DNA of 64,000 nt, taken from the NCBI GenBank assembly GCA_039545315.1, contig BCIM01000003.1, positions 1,251,637-1,315,636 on the forward strand, read 5' to 3'. The DNA is from Kondoa malvinella. Its lineage: Eukaryota; Basidiomycota; Agaricostilbomycetes; Agaricostilbales; Kondoaceae. Of the stretch, positions 1,434 to 24,484 are shown one piece after another (positions within the stretch are counted from its first letter, which is position 1; every line of letters begins with the position of its first letter). Below the pieces are notes generated by a model that did no database searches, was not told the origin of the DNA, and was given only the letters and a program-made list of their open reading frames with translations. The translations under genes and the position numbers were made by a program.

Positions 1434-1545
1434 CGAATCAAGTGCTAGGACACGGCTCTATTATTGTACAATACATGGTCTTGTGAACGAAATGAAATAC
1501 CCAGCATCTACATACATCAGGACCAGCCTGAACCCTCGTCTCGCT

Positions 1546-2421
1546 CAGAACAAACTCCCTGCTGGTCTGTCGCAAGCAATCAGGATAGTGTAAAAAGGAC
1601 GAACAGGACACGCACAAACTCTGCGTCTTGCCTAATTTCCGTTTCGTAGGCATGAACCTCCTCGTCTGTTCTACCTGCATGTCGGTATCTAATTGTAATG
1701 TCCCAGCATTGAAAGCCAATTCTTGAGATTCCGTCTCTTCTTCTATCCGATCCTCATGCGTGCGTTTCTTACTCGGTGATAAAGCAGGTGCTAGCTGAGG
1801 GGTAGACGAGGTATGCGGTGCAGCGAGTGAAGGTGTACCATCCATGTCCACGTCTGTGAATGACAATCCGCCAGTCGCGTCAAAAGGATTGTCGTTAGCT
1901 GCGTATCTGGCATTGTATTCAGATTGGATGTCGGAATTGTTCCACCTGTTCTTCGTGTTCAGCATTGCTTTGTCGACTAAAGTGGTTGAACCTTACATGG
2001 GCATAAGCTCCCTCTGCCCTTTCAAACGCTGCTGTTCCAGCAAGACGCGTTCACCTTCAATAGCCTGCCTAGCAATCTCCAGATCATCTTGTGTTGTATT
2101 GAAAACGACAGGTAAAGATTGCGTCCTGCCTAGAGAGCGATTACTGAATGATTTGTGTCCATGATTCACGCCTTGAAGCAATATTGCGTATAAGCACTGG
2201 ATGCAAGACAGAGAGAGAGAGAGAAGAGACGTACTGAAGCGCGCGTTACGTGCTCGCGCAGCTATCGCAGATCTATCGTCTGGCGAATAATAGGCAGCAG
2301 ATTGTGGGATGTACGAGTCGACAGGCGCTTCTGGTGTCGTTTCCCTTCTTGCCCTTTTTTCCTCCATTCCCGTTTGGCCCTCTTGAGCTGTGCTTGACGG
2401 TGTGTACGCGTCAAAGTGCAT
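1546..2421 (-). CDS. Hypothetical disordered protein
   Basis: I do not recognise this protein. It starts at ATG 2421 and reads through three likely introns: a GA-rich one near 2177-2232, one near 1966-1992, and one near 1570-1610, after which the frame closes at 1546. The product is about 220 residues, polar and largely disordered: an N-terminal basic patch (EEKRARRETTP), one probable helix/coiled coil (DDLEIARQAIEGERVLLEQQ), then NARYAANDNPFDATGG, an SPSKKRTHEDRIEEE stretch and a basic tail (RRFMPTKRKLGK) ending TQSLPAGSLF. The SPSKKR and TKRKLGK motifs could be nuclear localisation signals (inference). It converges on APM4 with 112 nt between stops and diverges from MCMBP with 30 nt between starts. 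Confidence 0.6.
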
Positions 2422-24327: not shown

Positions 24328-24332
24328 AAAAA
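24328..24332 (-). terminator. Pol III terminator (T5) behind the tRNA-Trp-like gene
   Basis: On the minus strand five T residues follow the discriminator base of the tRNA-like gene after three bases, the usual place for RNA polymerase III termination. It supports the view that the tRNA gene is, or recently was, transcribed. Confidence 0.6.
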
Positions 24333-24335
24333 TCC

Positions 24336-24484
24336 TGAACCACATGTGATTTGAACACATAACCTTCTGGACGTTCTCCGATAAATCGGGTCGACTGGAA
24401 TCAGACCTGGCGGGAAATTGTGAGTCTAACTTCTACCGTCAGACATGATGATTAGCTTACGCGCTACCGTTGCGCCAGCGGTCC
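24336..24484 (-). tRNA. tRNA-Trp (CCA)-like gene with two interruptions
   Basis: On the minus strand the 5' acceptor strand GGACCGC pairs with GTGGTTC plus discriminator A. Then come TG, a D-arm GCGC-AACGGTA-GCGC typical of tRNA-Trp, an anticodon segment TCTGATTCCAG carrying CCA, variable AGGTT, and a T-arm ATGTG-TTCAAAT-CACAT. Removing 24406-24459 (54 nt) and 24372-24394 (23 nt) leaves exactly 72 nt. The 23-nt piece sits at the canonical 37/38 position and contains a CCGA-TTTA-TCGG hairpin. The 54-nt piece sits at 26/27, begins GTAAGC and ends CCGCCAG when phased by one base, so it looks like a spliceosomal intron. A mismatch at 31-39 (A-C) leaves room for a pseudogene. Confidence 0.6.

Follow-up and report, generated by a model that had tools for sequence, protein, structure and literature searches.

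The window, by which we mean the whole 64,000-nt stretch of DNA that was analysed (C3:1251637-1315636 of a probably fungal 19.09-Mb genome in 20 contigs), carries at 24484-24336 on the minus strand a tRNA-Trp(CCA) gene that, as read from the sequence, is interrupted by two pieces. In two protein searches with this genome the top matches bore no organism label, and one Utp14 match (P0097), out of at least 120, is assigned to Trametes sanguinea. The gene and its surroundings consist of the following parts:

24461..24484, minus strand: tRNA-Trp exon 1, positions 1-25, with the 5' strand of the acceptor, T8 G9 and the complete D-arm (sequence and structure scoring)
24407..24460, minus strand: 54-nt intron of spliceosomal type at 25/26, GTAAGC...CCGCCAG (GT/AG ends, +5 G, length)
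24336..24406, minus strand: tRNA-Trp exon 2 region, starting at G26, with the CCA anticodon arm, the canonical-site intron, the T-arm, the 3' strand of the acceptor and A73 (sequence; tRNA-Trp(cca) by ARAGORN on the joined form)
24396..24398, minus strand: anticodon CCA (sequence; ARAGORN on the joined form)
24372..24394, minus strand: 23-nt tRNA intron at the canonical site (37/38), not GT..AG (sequence, boundary set by hand)
24328..24332, minus strand: T5, a run resembling a Pol III terminator (TTTTTGC; sequence)

As the initial annotation had proposed, removal of 54 nt and 23 nt leaves a 72-nt cloverleaf with the anticodon CCA, in which all four stems, including the acceptor (7 bp, with two G-U pairs), the D-stem (4 bp) and the T-stem (5 bp), are paired save for A31 facing C39, the sole mismatch in the joined form and one that had also been noted. 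The gene ends with A73 at 24336, and the T5 run placed by the annotation three bases downstream lies at 24332-24328 on the minus strand. The 54-nt piece (GTAAGCTAATCATCATGTCTGACGGTAGAAGTTAGACTCACAATTTCCCGCCAG; 24460-24407, minus strand) begins with GTAAGC and ends with CCGCCAG as described, and only its site has to be corrected: the GT-AG register is 25/26, and the one-base-shifted 26/27 that had been given reads TA...GG. By eye, this piece contains CTCAC near its 3' end, with the A 14 nt from the end; farther from that end, at 32 nt, it also has a CTGAC. The 23-nt piece sits at the normal 37/38 site, as annotated, if its boundary is placed manually such that position 38 (T), positions 39-43 (CCAGA) and a 5-nt variable loop come next; scripted scoring and ARAGORN preferred an intron of 12 nt accompanied by a long variable arm.

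As it stands the gene is missed by ARAGORN and by Rfam, and in the joined form it is called tRNA-Trp(cca) by ARAGORN. Among 3403 possible deletions in the gene, four tie for the best cloverleaf and exactly one of the four, the 54-nt deletion, is GT...AG. An alternative 55-nt GT..AG cut, which came up in the GTNNG..AG deletion scan described below, reads as tRNA-Met(cat). The A31-C39 mismatch (window 24401/24370, minus strand) also occurs in the joined form of a Leu(CAA) gene (L091), and a C-to-U change at position 39 would, speculatively, be one remedy in both.

The Trp gene is one of at least 11 tRNA genes that carry a GT...AG insert away from the canonical site. In the ten further genes the inserts lie at seven sites (13/14, 15/16, 25/26, 32/33, 51/52, 52/53 and 53/54):

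Cys-GCA (L126): insert at 13/14
Gly-CCC (L090): insert at 15/16
Arg-UCU (L063): insert at 15/16
Ile-UAU (L105): insert at 15/16
Leu-UAA (L059): insert at 25/26
Thr-CGU (L030): insert at 32/33
Leu-CAA (L091): insert at 32/33
Gly-UCC (L029): insert at 51/52
Arg-UCG (L033): insert at 52/53
Pro-CGG (L135): insert at 53/54

L029 and L030 were Rfam tRNA matches, Arg-UCG was recognised by eye at a match to a D-arm pattern, and the others came from structure scans; 60 of the 101 B-box places on the reading list were read. Another 28 tRNA genes (L001-L028) are conventional, either uninterrupted or with the usual single intron close to the anticodon, and off-site inserts are thus present in 11 of the 39 tRNA genes recognised, a partial census that includes no Met, His, Tyr or Asp gene. 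An intron at the canonical site accompanies the off-site insert in 10 of the 11 interrupted genes, as scored, and is 4-32 nt long. Runs of T4 or longer occur within about 25 nt downstream of the other ten genes. When tRNAs were sought by structure only, 17 hits, a figure that covers both ordinary and interrupted genes, were obtained in 238 kb and none in any of eight dinucleotide-preserving shuffles. For the shuffle comparison, for the GTNNG..AG scan and for the analysis of mRNA-type intron lengths, overlapping loci were dropped, the Gly-UCC locus L029 among them, and 108 sources were kept.

Three incomplete structures were excluded from the count of 11. One (about 1480-1580, plus strand, of the locus L040, on G000:C2) is a 5' part that resembles Arg(UCU) and lies some 0.6 kb upstream of the Arg-UCU gene; it comprises a D-arm, the 5' strand of an anticodon arm and, at about 24/25, the piece GTGAGC..CTGATTACAATTTGCAG, a matching 3' part was not seen there, and it is either a fragment or a gene that is split further. 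The second lies on the minus strand of L126 (B box at G000:C12:51051-51028) and is a tRNA-Cys-like 3' half with a perfect T-arm and T5, divergent from the intact Cys gene, which it partly overlaps; a 5' half belonging to it was not found. The third (L044; G000:C5:293654-293638, minus strand) is an Ala-like 5' half in which similarity is lost after the anticodon loop; it sits 6 kb from the oppositely oriented Ala(TGC) gene L017, and GACAATTTCTGTCCAG is found near both. Two smaller features of the census are that the terminator-like run downstream of many tRNA genes often reads TTTTTGC, with GC after the T-run, and that Thr-CGU, once freed of its GT..AG piece, has an anticodon loop four bases too long, the extra bases (TGTC) being read by ARAGORN as a canonical-site intron of 4 nt, which is unusually short.

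The boundaries of the inserts were examined on structure alone. All deletions of 30-70 nt in each gene were scored for the tRNA structure they leave, which gave 2-12 tied optima per gene, with 7 or 12 in three genes and 4 in Trp. A GT..AG deletion is among the tied optima in 8 of the 11 genes, for which the probability by chance is about 3e-11, and the next commonest pair of dinucleotides is found at the optima of two; in the remaining three genes the GT..AG cut falls below the optimum by 0.5 (Gly-UCC), 1.5 (Leu-CAA) and 2 (Gly-CCC) score units. After joining, ARAGORN reports a tRNA for all 11 genes and the expected anticodon for nine, the two that it misreads both being Leu, and before joining it reports a tRNA for three, of which a single one has the anticodon expected. 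The joined forms are not flawless: in the D-loop of Gly(CCC) one G of the usual pair is missing, and Arg(UCG) has T53-A61 instead of G53-C61.

A second approach left no room for selection by eye. Throughout the 238 kb, each stretch of 45-58 nt with the form GTNNG..AG was removed in turn (6353 deletions) and the products were submitted to ARAGORN, which called a tRNA spanning the junction 17 times. The calls fall at 11 places, namely the ten interrupted genes in the scanned set, without exception, and a Glu gene, at which a trivial effect at the 3' end is involved. Seven control pairs of dinucleotides gave 0-5 places and no new one, the control places being interrupted genes with another boundary or conventional Glu and Ser genes cut near the start, the D-arm or the end. 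For some interrupted genes the GTNNG..AG scan returned further alternative readings.

The inserts resemble the mRNA introns of this genome in length and in motifs. They measure 47, 48, 49, 49, 49, 50, 50, 51, 52, 54 and 55 nt. Across the sources kept, mRNA-type pairs of the form GTRNGY..CTRAY..YAG peak at 44-55 nt, with 20-54 per 1000 sites in each 4-nt bin, as compared with 2.5-9.8 per 1000 sites per bin over the same range for three controls that lack GT; with GTYNGY as a fourth control the peak is smaller (10-21), which fits a weaker 5' site. The 54-nt piece of the Trp gene falls inside this peak, in keeping with the annotated likeness of its length to that of the mRNA introns. G is present at +5 in all 11 inserts, GTNNGY in 9 of 11 (12.6% of random GT sites). 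Seven of the 11 have CTRAY no more than 25 nt from the 3' end, a feature shared by 5.1% of random 50-mers. The A of CTRAY lies 12-14 nt from the end in six genes and 21 nt from it in Cys, and in 161 putative mRNA introns this distance peaks at 11-13 nt. Together with one-letter variants recognised by eye, namely the CTCAC of Trp, CTTAT in Arg-UCU (12 nt) and CTCAT in Arg-UCG (11 nt), a branch-point-like CTNAY motif stands 11-14 nt from the end in 9 of 11 inserts; the Gly(CCC) insert, which ends in AAG, has neither CTRAY nor a near variant. Because the host mRNA introns used here are putative and were called by motif, so that every one of them contains CTRAY by selection, it is the peaks in length and distance that carry the argument. 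A search for mRNA introns by coding potential with two scripts returned 0 and 1 candidates.

Some inserts share short strings. ACAATTT occurs in the 3' parts of four (those of L059, L029 and L040 and the one at 24407-24460 of the window), that is, in 4 of 12 tRNA inserts with L040 included as compared with 0 of 160 putative mRNA introns; the Leu-UAA and Gly-UCC inserts have the longer string CTGACAATTTC in common, and the Trp and Ile inserts the 11-mer TGTCTGACGGT. We considered whether the tRNA genes might have an introner-like repeat family of their own and rejected this: the pattern GACAATTTCN{1,6}CAG is found 32 times genome-wide as compared with 10 times for the reversed pattern, and because GACAATTTC followed by CAG has these 32 occurrences throughout the genome, an element of the ACAATTT type is not special to tRNA genes.

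Combining the anatomy of the Trp gene with the recurrence, lengths and signals of the inserts, we suggest that the tRNA-Trp(CCA) gene very likely encodes a Pol III precursor with two introns, one a spliceosomal intron of the U2 type and the other an ordinary tRNA intron, and that this arrangement is repeated in no fewer than ten further genes. The suggestion of the initial annotation that a spliceosomal intron may have landed in a Pol III gene is thereby strongly supported, given that ten further tRNA genes have a similar insert.

An alternative is that the off-site inserts are cut out by the tRNA endonuclease at non-canonical structures resembling a bulge-helix-bulge, with GT-AG being incidental or secondary. 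Non-canonical endonuclease introns do exist, and 25/26 and 53/54 are known archaeal sites according to the accessible part of a review by Yoshihisa (PMC4090602). The genome also encodes the endonuclease family (PF01974), with a match at one place over the cut-off (43.4 bits) and at a second place two adjacent pieces below it, matches that fit the presence of canonical-site introns. We nevertheless regard this alternative as unlikely, since an endonuclease would have no need of GT/AG among the structural optima of 8 of 11 genes, of the invariant +5 G or of a branch-point-like motif at mRNA spacing, and since the inserts are uniformly 47-55 nt long whereas the canonical-site introns of the same genes, as scored, range over 0-32 nt. 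A full central helix of 4 bp is found in none of the 11 off-site inserts but, by the same simple test, in only 2 of 9 canonical-site introns, so that the test is a weak one.

Alternatively, the interrupted genes could be pseudogenes, that is, tRNA copies broken by insertions and left unprocessed. The A31-C39 mismatch and the half-gene fragments in this genome (L040, L044 and the minus strand of L126) would agree with decay, and insertions in the D-arm or T-arm of eukaryotic tRNA genes have been supposed to mark pseudogenes, mostly where one gene among many synonymous ones is affected (PMC4090602, accessible part). Here, however, searches by similarity and by pattern of the 19.1-Mb, 20-contig assembly found no intact, intron-normal tRNA-Trp(CCA) gene elsewhere, the outcome of the count of such genes that the initial annotation had called for, and none of the 11 anticodons is represented among the 28 conventional genes by the anticodon calls of ARAGORN. 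A BLAST search of the genome with the 201-nt Trp locus gave one match, the locus itself; the Trp D-arm string has one exact occurrence genome-wide and none with one mismatch; and the continuous string across positions 22-36, as expected of an intron-free gene, has no match in the genome with 0 or 1 mismatch. With two mismatches the continuous string spanning the D-arm and the anticodon arm matches 25 places genome-wide. In the standard nuclear code UGG is read only by CCA, and a nuclear genome needs one tRNA-Trp(CCA). Because of this requirement, and because no other copy was found, the gene in the window is probably essential and therefore processed. The arms of the interrupted genes are, moreover, otherwise largely intact and their splice signals are kept. 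The decayed copy that the initial annotation had named as its alternative is accordingly disfavoured for Trp, whose joined form shows no defect other than A31-C39, and for the genes as a group we consider decay very improbable.

That observers have merely read GT..AG ends into arbitrary insertions is hardly credible: although in four genes the junction could be placed several bases away and Arg-UCG was first spotted by eye, GT..AG optima in 8 of 11 genes exceed chance by far, the scan without choice by eye re-finds the ten genes in its set, and the structure scan is empty in eight shuffles.

Returning to the reading with two introns, we propose the following scheme for the Trp gene: (i) Pol III would transcribe the gene from its internal boxes, with T5 as terminator, (ii) the spliceosome would remove the 54-nt GT...AG intron at 25/26 by way of a branch point near its 3' end, and (iii) the tRNA splicing endonuclease and a ligase would remove the 23-nt intron at 37/38, steps (ii) and (iii) taking place in either order. 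Because at least ten other genes, with inserts at seven sites, show this arrangement, spliceosomal introns would have spread through tRNA genes, and the inserts may have been gained by insertion, for example by reverse splicing. By this reading of the DNA, the production of several isoacceptors probably requires the spliceosome. The insert splits the A box in Cys, Arg-UCU, Ile and Gly-CCC and the B box in Pro, and inserts that split a box could harm transcription by Pol III. By eye, the terminal AG of the intron seems in some genes partly to rebuild the promoter box, as in Arg-UCU, where ...CTAG is followed by TGGTAG, and in Pro, where ...CCAG is followed by TTCAATTCC. Overall, we consider it likely that U2-type introns have colonised many tRNA genes (11 of the 39 recognised), Pol III boxes included, and that the reading of UGG and other codons in this organism would need two splicing machineries.

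The U6 gene of Schizosaccharomyces pombe, described by Tani and Ohshima, has an mRNA-type intron that is thought to stem from reverse splicing (PMC10484740, accessible part). Fission-yeast U6 is the closest precedent: as in that gene, an mRNA-type intron lies within a gene for RNA polymerase III, and unlike U6, which is itself part of the spliceosome, the hosts here are tRNAs and the introns occupy many genes and many sites. In the genome analysed here one U6 gene was reported (L147; G000:C14:428362-428477), and it has no intron. Fungal nuclear rRNA genes offer another parallel in which an intron of spliceosomal type resides in a structural RNA; judging by the title of a 1993 paper cited in PMC11782384, Rogers and others reportedly described a messenger RNA intron in nuclear 18S rDNA. 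These rRNA genes are Pol I genes, unlike the tRNA hosts.

Non-canonical introns in tRNA genes are themselves not new. According to the accessible part of the same review (PMC4090602), archaea, the nucleomorphs of cryptophytes and chlorarachniophytes and Cyanidioschyzon merolae have introns in the D-arm or T-arm, those of archaea also at 25/26 or 53/54, and some of these genes have a canonical-site intron as well, as do ten of our eleven by the scoring used here. The introns of archaea and Cyanidioschyzon are tied to a bulge-helix-bulge and those of the Guillardia nucleomorph are very short (3-24 nt), whereas the inserts described here are 47-55 nt long, have GT..AG ends and contain a branch-point-like motif. 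They also differ from canonical eukaryotic introns at 37/38, which are not GT..AG, vary in length and are substrates of the endonuclease. Introns are present in 132 of 143 tRNA genes of Cryptococcus neoformans (PMC4090602, accessible part), and the stem "spliceosom" is absent from the main text of that review. For tRNA genes, the accessible part of PMC11782384 names archaeal and group I introns and no spliceosomal one, and a 2026 review of non-canonical splicing, in the part accessible, ascribes tRNA splicing to protein enzymes and not to the spliceosome (PMC13149111). Our search of the open-access literature, with most subscription papers and preprints outside its scope, listed no paper that describes tRNA genes with spliceosomal introns. 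The type of intron is thus known, and its residence in many tRNA genes looks new.

In teaching, the introns of tRNAs and those of mRNAs are kept strictly apart, each kind with its own enzymes. If the interrupted genes are matured into tRNAs by the spliceosome, one practical consequence is that tRNA gene finders can overlook whole isoacceptors; ARAGORN and Rfam both miss the Trp gene. Because the sequence and structure of mature tRNAs are so well known, the sites of insertion can be fixed almost to the base, and for this reason the gain of introns and the constraints on it become directly testable. If the interpretation given here is true, Pol III transcripts besides U6 can be substrates of the spliceosome and the supply of tRNAs would be coupled to mRNA splicing; the inserts would then form a new class of tRNA intron, and they would offer a natural experiment on how non-coding Pol III genes acquire introns.
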